A stretch of DNA of 64,000 bases from Brachybacterium faecium DSM 4810. Lineage in GTDB: Bacteria > Actinomycetota > Actinomycetes > Actinomycetales > Dermabacteraceae. The stretch is from the NCBI GenBank assembly GCA_000023405.1, contig CP001643.1, positions 1,488,001-1,552,000 on the forward strand, in the 5' to 3' direction. The notes beneath the pieces were generated by a model, which was given only the letters and a program-made list of their open reading frames with translations, was not told the origin of the DNA and made no database searches. Positions within the stretch are counted from its first letter, which is position 1. The number at the start of each line of letters is the position of its first letter. This document shows, piece after piece, positions 50,447-61,871 of the stretch. Position numbers and translations under genes: made by a program.

Positions 50447-51288
50447 GCGGGGACCGTCTCGACGTCGCGCTGCTCGCCGCCGGCCTCGCCCGGTCCCGCA
50501 GCCACGCCCGGCGCATCATCGAGGAGGGGCGCGCCCGCGCGGACGGCCGCGCGGTCACCAAGCCCTCCACCCCGATCCCGCCCGGCACCGGCCTCGCGGT
50601 CGTCGACGTGCCCGACGGGGTCGAGTTCGCCTCCCGCGCCGCACACAAGCTCGCCGGCGCCCTCGACGCGCTGGGGCTCGACCCCGCCGGACTGCTCTGC
50701 CTCGACGCCGGCGCCTCCACCGGCGGGTTCAGCGACGTGCTGCTGCGCCGGGGCGCGGCCGCGGTGATCGCGGTCGACATCGGCCACGACCAGCTCGCCG
50801 AGCACGTCCGCAGCGACCCGCGCGTGACGGTCCGGGACGGCACGAGCGTGCGTGATCTCACCCCGGAGCTGCTGGGCACCGCGGTGGATCTGCTCGTCGC
50901 GGATCTGTCCTTCATCTCCCTGCGCACCGTGATCGCGGCGCTCGGCGGCGTCGTCCGCCCCGGCGGGGAGCTGCTCCTCATGGTGAAACCCCAGTTCGAG
51001 GTGGGCAGAGCCGCGCTGCCGAAGTCCGGCGTGGTCACCGATCCCGCGGCCCGTCAGGAGGCGGTGCGCGCCGTGGCGGAGGCCGCCGCGCACGCCGGTC
51101 TGCGCCTGGCGGCCGTGGGCCCCAGCACCCTGCCCGGTCAGGACGGCAACCGCGAGTACTTCCTGCAACTGCGGCCGCACGGCGCGACCTCCGCGCTCGA
51201 CGCCGAGGCCTGTGACATGATCGTGTCGGCCGTGCGCGGGGACGGTCCGCGGCAGCGCCGCGACCGGCACATCAGCGAGGAGGAATGA
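50443..51288 (+). CDS. tlyA: TlyA family rRNA (cytidine-2'-O)-methyltransferase
   Basis: 281 residues from GTG 50443. The N-terminal S4 RNA-binding domain (RLDVALLAAGLARSRSHARR) is followed by an RrmJ-like methyltransferase with LDAGASTGGFSDVLL and VDIGHDQL, then LVADLSFISL and LLMVKPQFEVGR. TlyA methylates C1409 of 16S and, in long forms, C1920 of 23S rRNA, and so affects capreomycin action in mycobacteria. It overlaps both neighbours, in the conserved order tlyA-nadK-recN. Confidence 0.95.
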   Translation: MSGDRLDVALLAAGLARSRSHARRIIEEGRARADGRAVTKPSTPIPPGTGLAVVDVPDGVEFASRAAHKLAGALDALGLDPAGLLCLDAGASTGGFSDVLLRRGAAAVIAVDIGHDQLAEHVRSDPRVTVRDGTSVRDLTPELLGTAVDLLVADLSFISLRTVIAALGGVVRPGGELLLMVKPQFEVGRAALPKSGVVTDPAARQEAVRAVAEAAAHAGLRLAAVGPSTLPGQDGNREYFLQLRPHGATSALDAEACDMIVSAVRGDGPRQRRDRHISEEE

Positions 51289-52238
51289 CCACCATGCGAC
51301 GGTTCCTCCTGTATGTGCACACGGGCCGCCGCGCCGCGCTGCGCGCGATGCTCAGCGTGCTCGAGGAGCTCCGGCTGCGGAACGTGCGGGCGGTCGTGGT
51401 CGACGAGCAGGTCGAGGAGATCCTCGCCCTGCCCGAGGACATGGCCCCGCCGAAGCTGATCACCTTCCTCACCAACGGCGCCGTGGACGTGCGCGCCGCG
51501 GTCTCCGCGGCGGACGTCGTCGAGCTCGGCATCGTGCTCGGCGGCGACGGGACCATCCTGCGAGCGCTCGAGGCGGTGCGCGAGGCGGACATCCCCGTCC
51601 ACGGCGTGAACCTCGGGCACGTGGGCTTTCTCGCCGAGAGCGAGGTGGAGGACCTCTCGATCACCGTCGCGCGACTGCTGGACGGCGACTACGACATCGA
51701 GAAGCGCTCCACGCTGGACATCACCGTCCTGGACTCCGAGGACGAGCTGGTCGACCACCACTGGGCGCTGAACGAGGCCTCCCTCGAGAAGGCCGACCGG
51801 CAGAAGATGATCAACGTCGCGATCGAGATCGACGGCCGGCCCGTCTCCTCCTTCGGCGCCGACGGCGTGCTGCTGTCCACCTCCACCGGATCGACCGCCT
51901 ACGCCTTCAGCGCCGGGGGACCGGTGATCTGGCCCGAGGTGGACGCGATGATGCTGATCCCCCTGGCGGCCCACGCGCTGTTCGCGCGTCCGCTCGTGCT
52001 GGGACGCTCCTCCGAGGCGGCGGTCGAGATGACGCTCGACAACCGCGAGGACGGCATCCTCACGCTCGACGGCCGCCGCGGTGCGGACATCACCGCCGGC
52101 ATGCGCATCGAGGCCCGGCTCTCCCCGCGGTCGGTGCGCCTGGCCCGGCTGGCACCGACACCCTTCGCGGACCGGCTGGTCGAGAAGTTCCAGCTGCCCG
52201 TCGTGGGATGGCGGGGGCGCGGCCCCCGCACCCGCTGA
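51285..52238 (+). CDS. nadK: NAD kinase
   Basis: Makes NADP from NAD with ATP or polyphosphate. 317 residues. The catalytic GGDGTILRALEAVREADIPV, VNLGHVGFLAE, the NE motif in LNEASLEKADRQ, and the glycine-rich STGSTAYAFSAGGPVIWPEV are all intact. ATG 51285 overlaps the tlyA stop by four bases. Confidence 0.97.
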   Translation: MTTMRRFLLYVHTGRRAALRAMLSVLEELRLRNVRAVVVDEQVEEILALPEDMAPPKLITFLTNGAVDVRAAVSAADVVELGIVLGGDGTILRALEAVREADIPVHGVNLGHVGFLAESEVEDLSITVARLLDGDYDIEKRSTLDITVLDSEDELVDHHWALNEASLEKADRQKMINVAIEIDGRPVSSFGADGVLLSTSTGSTAYAFSAGGPVIWPEVDAMMLIPLAAHALFARPLVLGRSSEAAVEMTLDNREDGILTLDGRRGADITAGMRIEARLSPRSVRLARLAPTPFADRLVEKFQLPVVGWRGRGPRTR

Positions 52239-52252
52239 GAGAGGAGGCACCT

Positions 52253-54025
52253 GTGCTGTCCACTCTGCGCATCCGCCATATCGGCGTGATCGACGACGCC
52301 ATGCTCGACTTCGGTCCCGGCTTCACCGCCCTGACCGGCGAGACCGGCGCCGGCAAGACCATGATCGTCACCGGGCTGAGCATGCTGCTCGGCGGCCGGC
52401 TGGACCGCGGGCGCACCCGCGGCTCGAGCACCGTCGACGGCACGCTGTCGCTGACCGGCCACACCGAGCTCGCCGCCGCGCTCGACGAGCTCGGCGCCGA
52501 CGAGGACGACGGCGAGGTGCTCGTGGTCCGGCGCGTCACCCGCGACGGCCGCTCGCGAGCCCAGATCGGCGGGGTCCCCGTCCCCATCGGCACGCTCTCC
52601 CGCCTGGTGGGCACCGCCGTCACCGTGCACGGCCAGTCCGATCAGCAGCGGCTGCGGGACCCGGAGGCGCAGCGGGAGGCGCTGGACCGCTTCGCCGAGG
52701 CCGAGGTCGGCACGCTGCTCAGACGGCACCGCGAGATCTGGCGCGAGCGCTCCGCCCTCGCCGCACGGGTCACCGAGCTCGAGGAGCTGCTCGCCGAGCG
52801 GGACCGCCGCGGCACCATGCTCCGCGACGCCCTCGAACGGCTCGAGCAGGCCGACCCGCAGGAGGACGAGGACGTCTCGCTGCGCGCCGAGATCGAACGG
52901 CTCGGCAACGCGGAGGAGCTGCGCGGTGCCGCCGGACAGGCCGCCCTGGCCCTGGTGGGCGACGACGACGGCCCGGCCGCGGCACCGCTGCTCGCCGTCG
53001 CGGCGGAGGCGCTCGGACGTGCGGCCCGCACCGACCCGACGCTCGAACCGCTCGTCGAACGGCTGGATTCCGTGCGCATCGAGCTCTCGGACGTCGCCGC
53101 GGAGATCTCCCGCTACGCCGAGGACATCGACGCCTCGCCCGGCCGGATGGAGGAGGCCAACGAGCGCCTCCACGAGCTGACGGTGCTGGTGCGGGACCTC
53201 GGCGCGATGCTCCCCGGCCCCGAGGGGCCGGCCGAGGAGATCAGCACGCTGCTGGCCACCTCCCGCACCGCCGCCATCGACCTGGACCGCTACGACGGCG
53301 CCGAGAGCGAACGCGCCGAGGCCGCCTCCCGCCTCGCCCAGCTCGAGACCGAGCTCGACGACGCCGCCGAGGCCCTCACCGCGGCCCGCACGGCCGCCGC
53401 CTCCGCCCTCTCCGCCGCCGTGCAGGAGGAGCTGCACCACCTCGAGATGCCGGATGCGGAGATCCGCGTGGACGTCACCGCGCAGAGCCACCGCTCCCAC
53501 GGCCGCGACGCGGTCGCGATCCTGCTGGCCCCGCATCCGGGGGCGCAGCACCTGCCGGTCGCCCAGGCGGCCTCCGGCGGCGAGCTCTCCCGGGTGATGC
53601 TCGCCCTCGAGGTCGCGCTGTCCTCCTCACGCAACGACCGCACCGCTGCACCGGTGTTCGTCTTCGACGAGATCGACGCCGGGATCGGGGGCCGGGCCGC
53701 GCTCGCGGTGGGGCAGCGCCTCGCCCGGCTCGCCCGCCACGCCCAGGTGATCGTGGTGACCCACCTGCCGCAGGTCGCCGCCCACGCGAGCACCCACCTG
53801 CAGATCGTGAAGTCCTCCCACGACGGCACCACCAGCTCCACGGTGGAGACCCTCGACCGCCCCGACCGGATCCGCGAGCTGGCCCGGATGCTCGCCGGCG
53901 ACGACGCCTCCGACGTCGCCCTCGCCCATGCGGAGGAGCTGCTGGACGAGGCCCGCGCCGTCACCGCGGAGCACGGCACCGGCCGTGCCGCCGCGCACAG
54001 CGCCGGCCGGGGAGCGGAGCGATGA
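52253..54025 (+). CDS. recN: DNA repair protein RecN
   Basis: SMC-like ATPase for double-strand break repair. 590 residues from GTG 52253, with a GAGGAGG 5-6 nt upstream. Walker A GETGAGKTM at about 29-37. A long coiled-coil middle contains LERLEQADPQEDEDVSLRAE and QLETELDDAAEALTAARTAA. The C-terminal lobe has the signature ASGGELSRVMLALE and Walker B PVFVFDEIDAGIGG. It overlaps steA by ATGA. Confidence 0.97.
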   Translation: MLSTLRIRHIGVIDDAMLDFGPGFTALTGETGAGKTMIVTGLSMLLGGRLDRGRTRGSSTVDGTLSLTGHTELAAALDELGADEDDGEVLVVRRVTRDGRSRAQIGGVPVPIGTLSRLVGTAVTVHGQSDQQRLRDPEAQREALDRFAEAEVGTLLRRHREIWRERSALAARVTELEELLAERDRRGTMLRDALERLEQADPQEDEDVSLRAEIERLGNAEELRGAAGQAALALVGDDDGPAAAPLLAVAAEALGRAARTDPTLEPLVERLDSVRIELSDVAAEISRYAEDIDASPGRMEEANERLHELTVLVRDLGAMLPGPEGPAEEISTLLATSRTAAIDLDRYDGAESERAEAASRLAQLETELDDAAEALTAARTAAASALSAAVQEELHHLEMPDAEIRVDVTAQSHRSHGRDAVAILLAPHPGAQHLPVAQAASGGELSRVMLALEVALSSSRNDRTAAPVFVFDEIDAGIGGRAALAVGQRLARLARHAQVIVVTHLPQVAAHASTHLQIVKSSHDGTTSSTVETLDRPDRIRELARMLAGDDASDVALAHAEELLDEARAVTAEHGTGRAAAHSAGRGAER

Positions 54026-55191
54026 GCCCCTCCCTCGCGGGCACCGCGCGCCTCGGCAAGCGCACCAAGGACCTCACCAAGCGCCTCCAGCCCGGCGACA
54101 TCGCCGTGATCGACCACGAGGACATCGACCGGGTCGCCGCCGAGGCCCTCGTGGAGCGGCAGCCGGCCGCGGTGCTCAACGTCGCCGCCTCCACCTCCGG
54201 CAGGTACCCCAACGCCGGTCCGCGGATCCTCGTGGACGCCGGCATCGTGCTGGTCGACGGCCTGGGCCCCGCCGTCTTCGAGGAGGTCCGCGACGGCGAG
54301 CAGCTCACGATCGCCGGGCACGAGGTGCTCCTCGAGGACAGGCCCATCGCCGCCGGCACCCGGCAGGACGACGCGACGGTGACCGCCTCCCTCGAGATCG
54401 CGCGCGAGGGCCTGTCCGAACAGCTCGAGCTGTTCGCGCAGAACACCATGGAGTACATGCTGCGCGAACGGGACCTGCTGCTGGACGGCATCGGCGCCCC
54501 GGACGTGGCCACCCGCATGGACGGCCGCCCGGTGCTCATCGTCGTGCGCGGCTACCACTACAAGGAGGACCTCGCCACCCTCAAGCCGTTCCTGCGCGAG
54601 AACCGCCCCATCATCATCGGCGTCGACGGCGGTGCCGATGCCGTGCTCGAGGCGGGCTTCCACCCCGACATGATCATCGGCGACATGGACTCCGTCTCCG
54701 ACCGCGCGCTGCGCGGCGGCTCCGAGCTGGTGGTGCACGCCTATCGCGATGGCCGCGCCCCGGGGATGGAGCGGCTCGCCGCGCTGGGGATCGAGGACGG
54801 CGCGATCGCCTTCCCCGCCTCCGGCACCAGCGAGGACATCGCGATGCTGCTGGCCGACGAGAAGGGCGCCTCCGTGATCGTCGCCGTCGGCACCCACGGC
54901 ACCCTCGAGGAGTTCCTCGACAAGGGCCGCGCCGGCATGAGCTCCACCTTCCTCACCCGGCTGCGGATCGGCTCGAAGCTCGTCGACGCGAAGGGCGTCT
55001 CCCGCCTGTACCGTCAGAGGATCTCCACCTTCCAACTGGTGCTGCTGGCCCTGGCCGGGCTGGCGGCGCTCGCCGTCGCACTCTGGGCGACCCCCGGCGG
55101 GCAGGCGCTGGTCCAGATCCTCGGCGCCCGCCTGGACGGGGTCCTGTCCTGGTTCACCATGCTGTTCTCACCCCGGGTCACCGGGGCGTAG
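54022..55191 (+). CDS. steA: SteA-like cytokinetic ring protein (thiamin pyrophosphokinase-like fold)
   Basis: 389 residues. The N-terminal half is the SteA-specific domain (LQPGDIAVIDHEDIDRVAAE). The middle resembles the thiamin-pyrophosphokinase catalytic domain, with GVDGGADAVLEAGFHPDMII and GDMDSVSDRAL, but that role is doubtful. One membrane span lies near the C-terminus (FQLVLLALAGLAALAVALWA, about 342-361). In corynebacteria SteA and SteB work together at the septum in daughter-cell separation. It is followed 15 bp later by steB, the same order as Rv1697-Rv1698. Confidence 0.9.
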   Translation: MSPSLAGTARLGKRTKDLTKRLQPGDIAVIDHEDIDRVAAEALVERQPAAVLNVAASTSGRYPNAGPRILVDAGIVLVDGLGPAVFEEVRDGEQLTIAGHEVLLEDRPIAAGTRQDDATVTASLEIAREGLSEQLELFAQNTMEYMLRERDLLLDGIGAPDVATRMDGRPVLIVVRGYHYKEDLATLKPFLRENRPIIIGVDGGADAVLEAGFHPDMIIGDMDSVSDRALRGGSELVVHAYRDGRAPGMERLAALGIEDGAIAFPASGTSEDIAMLLADEKGASVIVAVGTHGTLEEFLDKGRAGMSSTFLTRLRIGSKLVDAKGVSRLYRQRISTFQLVLLALAGLAALAVALWATPGGQALVQILGARLDGVLSWFTMLFSPRVTGA

Positions 55192-55206: not shown

Positions 55207-56364
55207 GTGATCGATTTCCGATACCACCTCGTCTCGCTGATCTCCGTGTTCCTCGCGCTCGCCGTGGGCATCGTCCTCGGCGCCGGGCCGCTGCGCGAGA
55301 ACCTCGGCGACCAGCTGGCCGGCCAGGTCGAGCAGCTGCGCACCGAGCAGGAGCAGCTGCGCTCCGACGCCGAGTCCCTCTCCACCAAGCACGACCAGCT
55401 CGCCACCTTCGTCGCGGACCTCGGCCCGGAGCTCGTCGAGGGCACCCTCGAGGGCAAGCAGATCGCGGTGCTCACCGACGACCGCTCCACCCGTCCCGGC
55501 ATCGAGCGCATGATGTCGCTGCTCACCGCGTCGGGCGTCGAGTCGCCGACGCGGATCGGGATGGAGACCTCGCTGTGGTCCCCGGAGGGCGCCTCCGAGC
55601 GGGCGGCGGCGCTCGAGGAGATCCGCGCCATCGCCCCGGAGACGCTCACCGCCGATCCCGATGACGAGCTCACCGATGCCGCCCAGCTCGCCGGTCTCCT
55701 CCCCACGCTCCTGCACGGCGGCGGCGACCTCTCGCCCGAGCTGCGCCAGCAGCTGTGGGACGTGCTGGTGGACCATCAGCTCGTGGTCGTCGACGGCACG
55801 GTCCCCGCGCAGGTCGATGCCGTGATCTACACCGGTGCGGCGCCGGAGGAGCTCGCCGTCGACACCGAGGACGAGGAGGTCGCGACGGAGCGTGCACAGA
55901 GCCTGCTCGCCCTGCAGACGCATCTGCTGCGCGTGCTCGCCGACACCGGCCTGCCCGCCGTGGTCTCCGCCGACACGCCCGGCAACGACGCCTCCAACGG
56001 CATCCTGCGCACGGTGCGGGGCGATGCCGACTTCGACGACCTCTCGACCACCGACCGCCTGCAGGAGGCCGACGGGCCGCTGCTGTCCGTGCTCGCCCTG
56101 ATCGAGCAGGTCCGCGGCGGGGCGGGGGCCTACGGCACCACCGCCGACGCCGAGGACCGCCTCCCGTCCCTGCCCGAGACGCAGGGGGTCGAGGAGCAGG
56201 CCGCCGCGCAGGACCAGCCCCAGGACGAAGCGCAGGGCGAGGCACAGGACGCAGCCGAGGGCGAGAGCCAGGACACGGGCCAGGGCGAGGCCCAGGGACA
56301 GCCCGCAGGGCAGGACGCCGGGGACGGCTCCGTGACGCCCTCGGACGACGGGGGAGAGGGATGA
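55207..56364 (+). CDS. steB: SteB/MctB-like membrane-anchored protein (annotated as copper transporter family)
   Basis: 385 residues from GTG 55207. A short N-terminal membrane span (YHLVSLISVFLALAVGIVLG) leads to an external coiled coil (QLAGQVEQLRTEQEQLRSDA) and a globular domain. The last 60 residues are a Gln/Glu/Gly/Ala repeat (EAQGEAQDAAEGESQDTGQG) of low complexity. The family includes mycobacterial MctB, linked to copper, and corynebacterial SteB, linked to division with SteA. Adjacency to steA favours the division role. It overlaps the next gene by ATGA. Confidence 0.9.
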   Translation: MIDFRYHLVSLISVFLALAVGIVLGAGPLRENLGDQLAGQVEQLRTEQEQLRSDAESLSTKHDQLATFVADLGPELVEGTLEGKQIAVLTDDRSTRPGIERMMSLLTASGVESPTRIGMETSLWSPEGASERAAALEEIRAIAPETLTADPDDELTDAAQLAGLLPTLLHGGGDLSPELRQQLWDVLVDHQLVVVDGTVPAQVDAVIYTGAAPEELAVDTEDEEVATERAQSLLALQTHLLRVLADTGLPAVVSADTPGNDASNGILRTVRGDADFDDLSTTDRLQEADGPLLSVLALIEQVRGGAGAYGTTADAEDRLPSLPETQGVEEQAAAQDQPQDEAQGEAQDAAEGESQDTGQGEAQGQPAGQDAGDGSVTPSDDGGEG

Positions 56365-57170
56365 GCGCCTCGCTGCGCGCCGAGCTGCGCCGCACCAACT
56401 TCGCCGGCCGCCGGGTGAGCCTGCTCGAGGGCGCCCTCGTCGTCGGCGGTGTCACCGTGCTCGCCACCCGCACCGGGCGGGCCGCGGACGCCGCCGTCCT
56501 CGCAGGGATCGGCGCGCTGGGCCTGATCGACGACGTGTGGGAGCCCCGTCAGCGCCGTGCCGGCCGCCCCGTCAGCAAGGGGCTGCGCGGACACCTCGGC
56601 GCCCTGCGCTCCGGACGCCTGACCACCGGCGCCGCCAAGGCGCTGGGGATCCCGCTGCTCGCCCTCGGCGGCGCCGCCGCCGCACCCGGCCCGCGCCGCG
56701 GGGCGATGGTGCTCGCGGACGCCGCGCTCGTCGCCGGCAGCGCGAACCTCGCCAACCTGCTCGATCTGCGGCCCGGCCGTGCGCTCAAGGCGGTGCTGCC
56801 CGGCGCGGTCGTGCTCGCCGCCGCTCCCGGCGGCGACCCGCGCGACGAGAGCGGCCGCCGGCTCGGCCTGGCCGCCGCCCTGCCCGCGCTCCTCGCCCTG
56901 CCCGCCGATCTGCGCGAGCACGGCATGCTGGGCGATGCCGGCGCCAACATCCTGGGCGCGGCCGTGGGCGGCGCCGCGAGCCGCCGCCTGCCCGTCCCGG
57001 CCCGGCTGTGCCTGCTCGGCGGGATCGTCGCCCTCACCTTGACGAGCGAACGCGTGAGCTTCAGCGCGGTCATCGACCGCAGCCCCGCCCTGCGCGCCCT
57101 GGACCAGCTCGGCCGCCGGCCCGCGCCCCGTCCAGAGGACACCGGCCCGGCAATGGGGGAGCAGCGATGA
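56361..57170 (+). CDS. MraY/WecA-like phospho-sugar transferase (short form)
   Basis: 269 residues of an integral membrane protein in the polyprenyl-phosphate phosphosugar transferase family. The family motifs remain: NFAGRRV near 13-19, the Mg-binding Asp pair in LGLIDDVWE (57-58), the NLANLLDLRPGRALK motif near 130-144, and HGMLGDAGANILG near 192-204. It lacks the first one or two spans of MraY and is about 60-80 residues shorter. It may load a sugar phosphate onto a carrier lipid for wall glycan or another polymer. It is coupled by ATGA to both steB and murJ. Confidence 0.8.
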   Translation: MSASLRAELRRTNFAGRRVSLLEGALVVGGVTVLATRTGRAADAAVLAGIGALGLIDDVWEPRQRRAGRPVSKGLRGHLGALRSGRLTTGAAKALGIPLLALGGAAAAPGPRRGAMVLADAALVAGSANLANLLDLRPGRALKAVLPGAVVLAAAPGGDPRDESGRRLGLAAALPALLALPADLREHGMLGDAGANILGAAVGGAASRRLPVPARLCLLGGIVALTLTSERVSFSAVIDRSPALRALDQLGRRPAPRPEDTGPAMGEQR

Positions 57171-58933
57171 GCCCCGCGGATTCCCGGCCCTCCCGCGCCG
57201 CGACCCGTCGCGGCGGGATCGCGCGCTCCGTGCTGCGGGGCGCGGGCGTGATCCTCGTGGTGACCGTCTTCGCCCGTATCGCCGGGTTCGTGCGCTACCT
57301 CGTCTTCGGCGCGAGCGTGGGCGCCGGTGACGTGGGCACCGCCTACACCACCGCGAACATGCTCCCGAACGTGCTGTTCGAGGTGGTCGCCGGCGGGATG
57401 CTCGCCGCCGTGGTGGTCCCGCTCATCGCGGGACTGGTCCCCGAGGGCGACCCGGGCGGACCGCTCGAGGCCGACGCGACGGCAGACCCCCGCACCGTCG
57501 AGCAGCTGCGCTCGGAGGAGACGTCCCGCACCGCCGAGGAGGGTGCGGCGCTCGCCGACCGGATCACCTCCACGCTGCTGACCTGGACCCTGCTGGGCAC
57601 CGGCGTGCTCGCGGTCGTGGTGATCGCGCTGTCGGGCCCGCTGGCCCAGCTGCTGCTGGCCGCGGAGTCGCCCGGCGCCGCCGGGGTGCCGCTGGGGGCG
57701 ACGCTGCTGCGCATCTTCGCGCTCCAGCTGCCGCTGTACGGGATCGCGGTGGTGCTGGCCGCCTACCTGCAGGCCCGCAAGCGCTTCCTGTGGCCCGCGA
57801 TGATGCCGCTGCTGTCCTCGGTGACGGTGATGATCGCCTACCGGGCCTACGCCCACCTGGTGCCCCCGGTCGCCACCGCCACCACGATCGACCGGGCCCC
57901 GGTGTGGTGGCTCGGCTGGGGCACCACCGCCGGGGTCGCGATCATGGCGGTCCCCGTGGTCGTGACCGCGGTGCGCTCCGGGCTGCGGCTGCGCCCCTCG
58001 CTGTCCATGCCGCCCGGCTACGGCCGGCGCGCCCTCGCCCTGGGCGGGGCGGGCCTCGGAGCCGTCGGCGCACAGCAGGCGGTGCTCGCACTGGTGATGC
58101 TGCTCGCCATGCGCGCCGGGGGAGTGGGCACCCTGCCCGTCTTCCAGTACGCGCAGGCGCTGTACCTCCTGCCCTACGCGGTGCTCGTCGTCCCCCTGGT
58201 CACGTCGGTGTTCCCGCATCTGTCGGAGCTGCGTCTGGTGGGGGACCGCTCGGGCTTCGCGAAGATCGCCGCCGCCTCCGTCCGCACCGTCATGGTCGTC
58301 TCCGTGATCGGTGCCGCGATGCTCGTGGCCGCCGGGCCGGCGCTCGAGCACTTCTTCCACCTCATCGACCGTGCCGGCGCGACCGGCGTCGGCTCCACCA
58401 CGGCCGGGCTCGCGCTGGGCCTGGTCGGCTTCGCGGTCTCGTTCCAGTGCACCCGGATCCTCTCGGCCGCGCTGCGCGCCCGGGACGCTCTGCTCGTCGG
58501 CTCCGTCGGCTGGGTGATCGCCGGCGTGGTGATCCTCCTGGTGGTGCTGCCCAGCCCCGAACGCACCGCGGCGGAGGCCTCGACGGCCTTCGGGCTGGCG
58601 ATGGCGCTCGGCATGGCCGTGGCCGGGCTGGTGGGCCTGGCCCGGATCGCGGACGTGCTCGAGCACGGCGGCCATCTCCCTCTGGTGCGGCGCACCGCGA
58701 TCATGGTCCCGCTCGCCGTGCTCGGCGGCGGGGTCCCCGGCCTCCTGCTCGCCCGCCGCCTGGTGACCAGCGACGCCGGCGAGCTGCGCACGGTGCTGCT
58801 GGGGGCGCTGTGCGGCCTGGCCGCCGGGCTGCTCGCCGCGGCGCTGATGGCCGCCGCCGATCCGGAGACCACCCGGAGGATGCTGCGGCGCCTGCGCGCA
58901 GGTCGCCACGGCGTGGCGAGGGCCGAGGGATGA
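57167..58933 (+). CDS. murJ: MurJ-like lipid II flippase
   Basis: 588 residues with about 14 membrane spans of the MOP/MviN superfamily. Seen: VTVFARIAGFVRYLVFGASV, TTANMLPNVLFEVVAGGMLA (the family N-terminal signature) and FALQLPLYGIAVVLAAYLQA. An acidic loop of about 55 residues (near 95-145) between early spans is unusual. It flips lipid-linked wall precursors outward. Here it is coupled to a phosphosugar transferase and a glycosyltransferase and not near an origin. It could be the genome's main MurJ or a second copy; this cannot be told here. Confidence 0.9.
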   Translation: MSPADSRPSRAATRRGGIARSVLRGAGVILVVTVFARIAGFVRYLVFGASVGAGDVGTAYTTANMLPNVLFEVVAGGMLAAVVVPLIAGLVPEGDPGGPLEADATADPRTVEQLRSEETSRTAEEGAALADRITSTLLTWTLLGTGVLAVVVIALSGPLAQLLLAAESPGAAGVPLGATLLRIFALQLPLYGIAVVLAAYLQARKRFLWPAMMPLLSSVTVMIAYRAYAHLVPPVATATTIDRAPVWWLGWGTTAGVAIMAVPVVVTAVRSGLRLRPSLSMPPGYGRRALALGGAGLGAVGAQQAVLALVMLLAMRAGGVGTLPVFQYAQALYLLPYAVLVVPLVTSVFPHLSELRLVGDRSGFAKIAAASVRTVMVVSVIGAAMLVAAGPALEHFFHLIDRAGATGVGSTTAGLALGLVGFAVSFQCTRILSAALRARDALLVGSVGWVIAGVVILLVVLPSPERTAAEASTAFGLAMALGMAVAGLVGLARIADVLEHGGHLPLVRRTAIMVPLAVLGGGVPGLLLARRLVTSDAGELRTVLLGALCGLAAGLLAAALMAAADPETTRRMLRRLRAGRHGVARAEG

Positions 58934-59985
58934 GCATCCTCCTGGTGCGCCCCGCCGCGAGCGGCGGCCTCGCCGCGCACGTCGACCACGAGCTCGCCCT
59001 GCTGCGCGCCGCGGGCCGGGACGTGGCCGAGGCGCCGGTGCGGATCCAGGAGCGCCCCCACTCGCTGGCGGATCTGCGCACGCTGCGCACCCTCCGCGCG
59101 GCGGCACGCGCCGCGACCCCGCCCGTGACGCTGCACGCCCACGGGCTGCGCGCAGGAGCGCTGGCCGCCCTCGCCCTCATCGGCCGCAGGCGGGAGCGCC
59201 TCGTGGTCACGCTGCACAACCGCACCGTCGGCTCCCGCGCGACGCGCACCGTCGGCGCCCTGCTGCTGCGGATCCTCGCGGGCCGCGCCGATGCCGTGCT
59301 CGCCGTGTCCCCCGACCTCGCCGAGATGGCGCGCCGGGCCGGCGCCCGCGACGTGCGGCACGCCGTCATCCCCGCGCCCGGGACGGCGCCAGAGAGCTCG
59401 GCCGAGCCCGCGCCGGAGCCCGCCCCCGATCCCGCACCGCCGACCGCGCACGCCGCCGAGCGTCTCGAGATCCTCGTGATCGCCCGCCTCGCCCCGCAGA
59501 AGGGGCTGCACGACCTGCTCGACGTCGCCGACGCGCTGCGGAGGCAGGCTCCGGTGAGGATCCGCGTGGCCGGGGACGGGCCGCTGCACGAGGAGCTCGC
59601 CGCGAGGATCCGTGCCGAGCGCCTCCCCGTGGAGCTGCTCGGTCGCCGCAGCGACGTGCCCGCGCTGCTGTCCGCGGCCGATCTGCTGGTCTCCACCGCG
59701 CACTGGGAGGGCCAGCCCGTGTCCCTGCAGGAGGCGCTGCGGTCCGGGATCGCGATCGTGGCCACTGACGCGGGCGGGACCCGGTGGGTCACCGGGGACG
59801 CCGCCCACCTGGTGCCCGTCGGCGACGTGCGCGCGCTCGCGGCGGCGATCACGGCGCTGCGCGAGAGCGGGACCCGTGATATGGCCGCGGCCGCCTCCCG
59901 CCGCCGTGCCCGCGAGCTGCCCACCGCGCAGGACCTCCTCGCCCAGCTCGATGAGGTGCTCGCCGCCGACCCCCGCGGCTGGTAG
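58930..59985 (+). CDS. Glycosyltransferase family 4 (GT-B)
   Basis: 351 residues. The N-terminal half shows LLVRPAASGGLAAHVDHELA, a GT4-type acceptor domain. The donor domain has VIARLAPQKGLHDLLDVADA, VRIRVAGDGPLHEEL and the retaining-enzyme motif EGQPVSLQEALRSG (E-x7-E). An Ala/Pro/Glu linker of about 30 residues joins the halves. It probably adds a sugar to the lipid-linked product of the neighbouring transferase; the sugar is unknown. It overlaps murJ by ATGA, and its TAG stop lies within the -10-like box before pyrG. Confidence 0.9.
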   Translation: MSILLVRPAASGGLAAHVDHELALLRAAGRDVAEAPVRIQERPHSLADLRTLRTLRAAARAATPPVTLHAHGLRAGALAALALIGRRRERLVVTLHNRTVGSRATRTVGALLLRILAGRADAVLAVSPDLAEMARRAGARDVRHAVIPAPGTAPESSAEPAPEPAPDPAPPTAHAAERLEILVIARLAPQKGLHDLLDVADALRRQAPVRIRVAGDGPLHEELAARIRAERLPVELLGRRSDVPALLSAADLLVSTAHWEGQPVSLQEALRSGIAIVATDAGGTRWVTGDAAHLVPVGDVRALAAAITALRESGTRDMAAAASRRRARELPTAQDLLAQLDEVLAADPRGW

Positions 59986-59996: not shown

Positions 59997-61871
59997 GTGG
60001 CAGATACCAGCGCGAACACCTCCCAGCCGGGCACCGGACCCATTCCGCGGATCGGCGCGGCCGCCGCGGGCAAGCCCTTCCGGAACCCGGGCATCACCAA
60101 GCACATCTTCGTCACCGGCGGCGTGGTCTCGAGCCTCGGCAAGGGGCTGACCGCCTCCTCGCTCGGCATGCTGCTGCGCAGCCGCGGCCTGCGGGTGACG
60201 ATGCAGAAGCTCGATCCGTACCTCAACGTGGACCCGGGCACCATGAACCCCTTCCAGCACGGCGAGGTGTTCGTCACCGAGGACGGCGCCGAGACCGACC
60301 TGGACATCGGCCACTACGAGCGGTTCCTCGACGAGGACCTCACCGCCCACGCGAACGTCACCACCGGGCAGGTGTACTCCACCGTGATCGCCCGGGAGCG
60401 GCGCGGCGAGTACCTCGGCGACACGGTGCAGGTGATCCCCCACATCACCGACGCGATCAAGGAGTCGATGCGCTCCCAGGCCGGGGACGACGTGGACGTC
60501 GTCATCACCGAGATCGGCGGCACCGTGGGCGACATCGAGTCGCAGCCCTTCCTCGAGGCTGCCCGGCAGGTGCGCCAGGACCTCGGCCGCGACAGCGTGT
60601 TCTTCGTGCACGTCTCCCTCGTGCCCTTCATCGGCCCCTCCCAGGAGCTGAAGACCAAGCCCACCCAGCACTCCGTGGCCGCACTGCGCTCGATCGGCAT
60701 CCAGCCCGACGCGATCGTGCTGCGCAGCGACCGCGAGCTGCCCACCTCGGTGAAGGCGAAGATCTCCTCGATGTGCGACGTGGACCTCGATGCGGTGGTC
60801 ACCTGCGCGGATGCGCCGTCGATCTACGAGATCCCGCTCGTGCTGCACGCCGAGGGCCTGGACGCCTACGCGATCCGGCGCCTCGACCTGCTCAGCCGCG
60901 ACGTGGACTGGACGCAGTGGGAGGAGCTGCTGCGCCGGGTGCACGAGCCCGCGTACGAGGTGACCGTCGCACTGGTCGGCAAGTACGTCGACCTGCCCGA
61001 TGCCTACCTCTCCGTGACCGAGGCCCTGCGCGCCGGCGGCTTCCACCACCGCACGCGGGTGAGCATCCGCTGGGTCGAATCCGATCGGTGCGCGAGCGGG
61101 GAGGGTGCGGCCGAACAGCTGCGCGACGTCGAGGCGATCGTCGTGCCCGGCGGGTTCGGCATCCGCGGGGTCGACGGCATGGTGGGGGCCCTGCACCATG
61201 CGCGCAGGCACGGCATCCCCACCCTCGGGCTGTGCCTGGGCATGCAGGCGATGGTGATCGAGCACGCCCGGCACGAGCTCGCCCTCGCCACCGCCCACTC
61301 CACCGAGTTCGATCCCGCCACCGAACACCCCGTGGTCGCGACCATGGCCGAGCAGGAGGGCATCCTCGCCGGGCAGGGCGATCTGGGCGGCAGCATGCGC
61401 CTGGGGTCCTACCCGCACACCCTCGTCGAGGGCTCGCTCGCCGCCCGCACCTACGGCACCACGGAGGTCGCCGAGCGGCACCGCCACCGCTACGAGGTCA
61501 ACAACGCCTACCGCGAGAGGCTCGAGGAGGCGGGGCTGCGCCTCTCCGGCACCTCCACCCTCGAGGACGGCCGCTCCCTGGTGGAGTTCGTCGAGCTGGA
61601 TCCCGCGGTGCATCCGTTCTACCTCGGCACGCAGGCCCATCCCGAGTTCACGTCCCGCCCCACCCGGGCGCATCCGCTGTTCGCGGGGCTGATCGGCGCG
61701 GCGGTCGAGCGGCAGAAGTCGACCCGGCTGCTCGAGGTGCTCCCGGAGGCGGCCGGCACCGCGCCTCCTGCAGCGTCGTCGCCCGTCGCGCCGTCGGCTG
61801 CAGCGTCGGCGCCCGCCGCGCCGGCGGGCATCGAGGACATCATGGACACCGGAGGGAAGGAGCACGCATGA
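59997..61871 (+). CDS. pyrG: CTP synthase
   Basis: Makes CTP from UTP, ATP and glutamine. 624 residues against about 550 usual. The synthetase domain has [38 protein letters not shown] and [15 protein letters not shown]. The glutaminase domain has GLCLGMQAM (nucleophile Cys near 413) and [10 protein letters not shown]. The extra length is an N-terminal segment of about 30 residues and an Ala/Pro/Ser tail of about 40. It follows the wall-lipid genes and overlaps the NUDIX gene by ATGA, as in mycobacteria (pyrG-Rv1700). Confidence 0.96.

Follow-up and report, generated by a model that had tools for sequence, protein, structure and literature searches.

The cell-separation proteins SteA and SteB have recently been studied in detail, and in a 2026 report CgSteA was stabilised by UDP or GDP and its pocket was predicted to bind carbohydrate, the ligand of SteA being unknown (PMC12977500). 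According to the same study steAB lies downstream of spo0A in Clostridia, and its main text makes no mention of MurJ, MraY or a flippase (PMC12977500). A second system to be considered is the Clostridioides difficile cluster CDR20291_1053-1057, which encodes a pyrophosphokinase (373 amino acids), an exported protein (291), a family 2 glycosyltransferase (230), a 'glycosyl transferase family protein' (274) and a DUF3866 protein (355) (PMC12548448). Tn-seq identified every one of these genes as essential, their function being unknown, and their knockdown results in chained, short, swollen and phase-bright cells, a description nearly identical to that given for knockdown of genes of the PS-II wall polymer in the same species (PMC12548448). 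The PS-II cluster has a MurJ1 of its own, proposed to be the flippase for a non-peptidoglycan precursor (PMC12548448). It is a precedent for a MurJ paralogue with a proposed non-peptidoglycan cargo, but its genes are different and PS-II has not been reported to be linked to steAB.

Here we describe a locus of Brachybacterium faecium DSM 4810, whose genome consists of one contig (3,614,992 bases). The whole stretch of DNA that was analysed, 64,000 nucleotides in length, is called the window. At this locus the SteA protein, recognised by NF040608, adjoins an MctB/SteB protein, as expected of a SteAB system, and three further genes lie between steB and pyrG (Table 1). The steB/transferase, transferase/murJ2 and murJ2/GT4 junctions, read from the sequence, are each a 4-base ATGA overlap; the initial annotation had reported this ATGA-coupled triplet, and its coordinates and coupling proved exact. 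Its comparison with the mycobacterial gene order was likewise correct, since a genome of the Mycobacteriales-like family f22 has nadK-recN-steA-steB-pyrG with nothing inserted. The steA and steB genes occupy the same place in the genome as in Corynebacterium and Mycobacterium, but Mycobacteriales have no transferase, MurJ2 or GT4. As they keep steAB without the triplet, the triplet is not a general requirement for SteAB function. In each of the three genes it is the third codon positions that vary most, which indicates purifying constraint.

Table 1. Features of the steAB-pyrG locus, in window coordinates
Feature	Position	Strand	Evidence
nadK	51285-52238	+	
recN	52208-54025	+	
steA; cytoplasmic/membrane partner in the SteAB cell-separation complex	54022-55191	+	NF040608 501.8 bits (cut-off 150); PF12555
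steB (MctB family); extracytoplasmic partner of SteA	55207-56364	+	PF11382 239.6 bits
Divergent polyprenyl-phosphate sugar-1-phosphate transferase-like membrane protein, 269 aa (putative)	56361-57170	+	Motifs, relatives, predicted PNPT fold (MraY/DPAGT1-like)
murJ2; paralogue within the MurJ flippase family, in its own clade, 588 aa	57167-58933	+	PF03023 108.3 bits
GT4 retaining glycosyltransferase, 351 aa	58930-59985	+	PF13692 91 bits, PF00534 87 bits
pyrG (CTP synthase); conserved right-hand neighbour, thought to lie outside the module	59997-61871	+	PF06418 407 bits
NUDIX gene	after pyrG		

We favour the reading, with a probability of about 0.6, that the triplet provides the biosynthetic part of a dedicated pathway for a lipid-linked glycan, one which is tied to SteA-SteB both physically and in evolution. 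It is built on gene content, the predicted fold and conserved catalytic aspartates of the transferase, the separate MurJ clade, synteny and co-occurrence.

The initial annotation had proposed counting the murJ and mraY genes of the genome, and had noted that the module would not be a separate pathway if its murJ was the only one and the transferase was inactive or absent in relatives. A genome search with PF03023 gave two MurJ proteins. The canonical-type copy lies near the contig end (C1:3598969, 197 bits), and the MurJ2 of the window is the weaker match, at about 107-108 bits. The PF00953 search gave two strong members, a MraY with a QHHFE loop and an enzyme of the WecA/TagO type with HLHH, and the profile did not detect the window transferase. 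Because a canonical MraY, a WecA-like enzyme and a canonical MurJ are also encoded, the triplet is not the housekeeping set. A third, weak PF00953 match at C1:1979515 was rejected, its sequence being that of a POT-type transporter.

The window transferase taken alone matched no Pfam or NCBIfam family, and PDB sequences searched with a profile of the transferase alignment gave no match either; the protein being too divergent for these searches, its fold was predicted. The 52 aligned relatives gave matches to a single Pfam family, PF00953, weakly and in 23 of them (E up to 0.1, best 7.7e-6). Two Bacillota relatives cover the whole PF00953 profile with 25.6 and 24.8 bits, so that the Pfam gathering threshold of 27 for the PNPT superfamily was not reached. 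Profile comparison with MraY and WecA aligned the DD, N..NL.D and GD.G motifs (probability 58.8, E 9.4e-5). The residues D57, D58, N129, N132, D135, G191, D192 and N196 are invariant in the 52 relatives, and the catalytic aspartates expected for the superfamily (D57, D58 and D192) are thus found across two phyla. An AlphaFold2 model of the window protein had a mean pLDDT of 94.2. The 21 best Foldseek matches to this model were all MraY or DPAGT1, with weak E-values (best 0.023) that are not significant by themselves; a structural aligner was therefore used to obtain Z scores. After realignment 17 MraY/DPAGT1 entries reached Z scores of 14.7-19.2 (206-226 aligned residues), against 5.5 for the next entry, which is unrelated. 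As MraY and DPAGT1 are the only strong structural matches, the model predicts the fold of polytopic sugar-1-phosphate transferases (MraY/GPT membrane fold). We call the protein a putative divergent branch of the superfamily, neither MraY nor WecA.

Compared with MraY, WecA and DPAGT1, with which it has the predicted fold and the three motifs in common, the window protein is short (269 amino acids), remains below the Pfam cut-off and lacks TM1, TM10 and the HHH or HxH loop. A hydrophobic segment is present at the place of TM1 in the N-terminus of deep-branching and Bacillota copies. The C-terminal His motif (HHH in MraY, HxHH in WecA) was absent from every full copy read, and a conserved tail, SE..S...I...P.L..LD..GR, with the variant SERVSF..VI..TP.LR.LD.LGR, takes its place in full copies. 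The second aspartate of the DG.DG motif is replaced as well, the transferase having DLRPGR. With the His motif, TM10 and this aspartate missing, catalysis could be lost or altered. The PNPT-like protein might even be a dead scaffold, or a sensor of nucleotide or lipid which regulates SteAB or wall synthesis, with MurJ2 and the glycosyltransferase as separate accessories. The replacement of the His loop and TM10 by an invariant SE(R/K)xS(F)..I...P.L..LD..GR tail would fit this explanation, as would the scores, all below the Pfam cut-off, and the further degenerated transferase retained by Streptomyces-like genomes without steA. However, invariance of the DD pair, D135 and D192 in 52 relatives from two phyla would be unusual for a dead enzyme. 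In addition, a glycosyltransferase nearly always adjoins the transferase gene, and its type swaps between GT2 and GT4 while the PNPT stays constant. We consider a scaffold or sensor quite unlikely and retain the pathway reading. An inactive or absent transferase in relatives, which had been named as an argument against a separate pathway, is not what the alignment suggests, the predicted catalytic aspartates being kept in 52 of 52.

MurJ2 clearly exceeds the PF03023 cut-off (27.4 bits) but remains below the TIGR01695 equivalog cut-off (109.5 versus 235.55 bits). We aligned 81 MurJ2 and 15 canonical MurJ (MurJ1) sequences of the same phylum with Escherichia coli MurJ, the numbering of which is used here. 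An equivalent of Arg18 is present in all 81 MurJ2 proteins, as is Arg or Lys at position 24. The Asp39 equivalent was found in 10 of 81 MurJ2 against 9 of 15 MurJ1. Arg52 has an equivalent in none of the 81, but actinobacterial MurJ1 proteins also lack it, so that of these two positions only Asp39 is informative. At the position of Arg53, variable in the 15 MurJ1, all 81 MurJ2 carry Glu or Asp. In a quick tree the MurJ2 copies of the locus cluster apart from canonical MurJ, with two changes per label, and the copy of the deep-branching genome G351 lies between. MurJ2 thus resembles the lipid II flippase MurJ in its PF03023 membership and its Arg18 and Arg24 equivalents, and differs in its own clade, its score, its mostly missing Asp39 and its invariant acidic residue. 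It appears to be a constrained flippase paralogue, and the residue pattern is consistent with a different cargo. It is very improbable that MurJ2 instead serves as a redundant flippase for lipid II and that the transferase and glycosyltransferase are peripheral peptidoglycan enzymes: family membership and the two conserved basic positions would agree with such a role, but the differences just listed speak against it, and MurJ2 is genetically linked to the PNPT-type gene and not to peptidoglycan genes. Counts of MurJ homologues per genome were also tried as a co-occurrence test and discarded, being inflated by distant transporters of the MOP superfamily.

The third protein has a Glycos_transf_1 domain together with the E-x7-E motif of GT4, and the motif was present in 60 of 60 orthologues read.

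The transferase was found in 48 of 58 related genomes. A scan of named genomes with the transferase alignment gave 571 confirmed places, and the best 80 of these were examined for their neighbours. Among these best 80 of 571 loci steA and steB were present in 78 and murJ2 in 77, and a GT4 was recognised by sequence, within the retrieved stretch, in 61. The 80 loci span nine actinobacterial orders (Micrococcales, Streptosporangiales, Propionibacteriales, Micromonosporales, Kineosporiales, Frankiales, Geodermatophilales, Actinomycetales and Allobogoriellales) and include two Bacillota. Since the scan used the transferase only and not its neighbours, the synteny with steAB is not circular, and conservation of the gene order over so many orders excludes a chance arrangement. 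Conservation across Micrococcales, proposed earlier as a check of the module, was indeed observed, but that frame was too narrow, the arrangement being much older and extending over Actinomycetota and Bacillota.

Among 396 Actinomycetota genomes, strong matches to both the transferase and SteA were found in 119, to SteA only in 24, to the transferase only in 10 and to neither in 243 (Fisher p 1.9e-63, a value which ignores the relatedness of the genomes). The 119 genomes span about 41 families, as tallied by family codes. The link to the SteA/SteB pair suggested by the initial annotation is therefore supported by both synteny and co-occurrence. Genomes with SteA only belong mostly to f22 and have the order recN-steA-steB-pyrG (L213), and those with the transferase only represent one Streptomyces-like genus (f21/g28) with genomes of Streptomyces size. 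In the one genome of this genus that was read, G177, steA, steB and murJ2 are missing between recN and GT4 and the transferase remains (L214:8807-9559). This copy has neither the conserved tail at its C-terminus nor the Lys of RPGRALK, and it looks as if the transferase decays where SteA is absent. Losses were also seen within Micrococcales: in the relative G052, which keeps steA, steB and GT4, both the transferase and murJ2 are missing from the interval between steB and pyrG (L210:6948-8261), and in another relative (L209) the transferase, murJ2 and GT4 are all lost.

Other forms of the locus were also found. Two Bacillota loci start with a spo0A-like regulator followed by steA-steB-GT2-transferase, which in one of them (L084, not L119) continues with DUF3866-NUDIX; neither has a murJ. 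Deep Actinomycetota have steA-steB-GT2-transferase-pyrG, with DUF3866 and NUDIX genes nearby and murJ2 in some. From these gene orders, the most constant core consists of the SteA/SteB pair together with the transferase and a glycosyltransferase, MurJ2 and GT4 being features of the actinobacterial form. The ancestral glycosyltransferase partner seems to have been a GT2 rather than a GT4. Two deep actinomycetes carry additional genes at the locus. In G351 (L215:7036-9906) a long frame lies between GT2 and the transferase; its product begins like a phosphatase, VVVVGVPGLGLDQV, contains many hydrophobic segments and might be an extra pathway enzyme. The other (L220:9422-10948) has, between the transferase gene and pyrG and on the opposite strand, a gene for a GT-C-like membrane protein with many helices, which is a candidate user of the lipid-linked sugar.

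The locus of the Bacillota member Mahella has the order of CDR20291_1053-1057, pyrophosphokinase (SteA-like)-exported protein-GT2-transferase-DUF3866, with proteins of 372, 277, 239, 273 and 350 amino acids. Because order and protein sizes match, we take them as one cluster; judged by order, size and annotation, the C. difficile genes appear to be the Bacillota steAB-GT2-transferase locus. They differ from the window in having a GT2 in place of the GT4 and no MurJ. This match bears on a further explanation, in which an ordinary wall polymer receives its linkage unit or precursor from the triplet, the polymer being of the teichoic or teichuronic acid type or PS-II-like, and its adjacency to steAB is merely historical. 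The minimal set for a linkage disaccharide is a PNPT, one glycosyltransferase and a flippase (compare WecA with WbbL, and TagO with TagA), and the triplet corresponds to it; the resemblance between the C. difficile cluster and PS-II knockdowns points in the same direction (PMC12548448). We nevertheless regard this explanation as unlikely, because the genome already has an enzyme of the WecA/TagO type, the steAB link spans Bacillota to Actinomycetota, which is long for a mere accident, and the transferase is degenerate in the sole genus found to have it without steA.

A dedicated lipid-linked glycan pathway tied to SteA-SteB thus remains the preferred reading. The enzymatic activities, the sugar, the flipping of the module's substrate and the connection with SteA are what we infer, with the protein families as the basis for the loading, extension and flipping steps. 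The PNPT-type enzyme would use a UDP-sugar to charge polyprenyl phosphate with a sugar-1-phosphate, and one or more sugars would be added by the GT4 (by a GT2 in Bacillota and deep Actinomycetota). The resulting short glycan, still lipid-linked, would be flipped outward by MurJ2 and could there be used by enzymes from other loci for a wall glycan, its linkage unit or a glycosylated surface molecule. Based on the published effect of UDP and GDP and on the synteny, SteA may read a nucleotide of the pathway, product or substrate, and pass this on to SteB and the wall hydrolase. More tentatively, and with doubt prevailing, we propose that this is an ancestral glycolipid pathway of Actinomycetota and Bacillota, the nucleotide substrate or product of which is the UDP/GDP ligand of SteA, so that glycan synthesis would license SteB and the hydrolase to split the daughter cells. 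The initial annotation had suggested a separate lipid-carrier route for a wall polymer or septal glycan. The separate route is the best reading, given the additional MurJ, MraY and WecA/TagO-type proteins and the retained catalytic aspartates; the 'septal glycan' is still a guess, the cluster containing no polymerase, ligase or LCP gene.

The module is apparently unassigned and consists of known types of parts with one divergent enzyme branch. A search of the open-access literature for the recN/pyrG/murJ neighbourhood and for a second actinobacterial MurJ found nothing on the locus, absence there not being equivalent to undescribed. The conserved order joins two questions, the nucleotide ligand of SteA (PMC12977500) and the essential C. 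difficile cluster (PMC12548448), in that an enzyme set expected to consume UDP-sugars adjoins a protein stabilised by UDP or GDP. If the proposal is true, Gram-positive bacteria would in large part have a further wall-related lipid-carrier pathway, which the mycobacterial and corynebacterial models used to study SteAB lack.

A minor observation concerns the SteB of the window, which has 385 amino acids, compared with about 350 in most of the genus, and ends in a low-complexity tail rich in Gln, Glu, Gly and Ala, AQGEAQDAAEGESQDTGQGEAQGQ.
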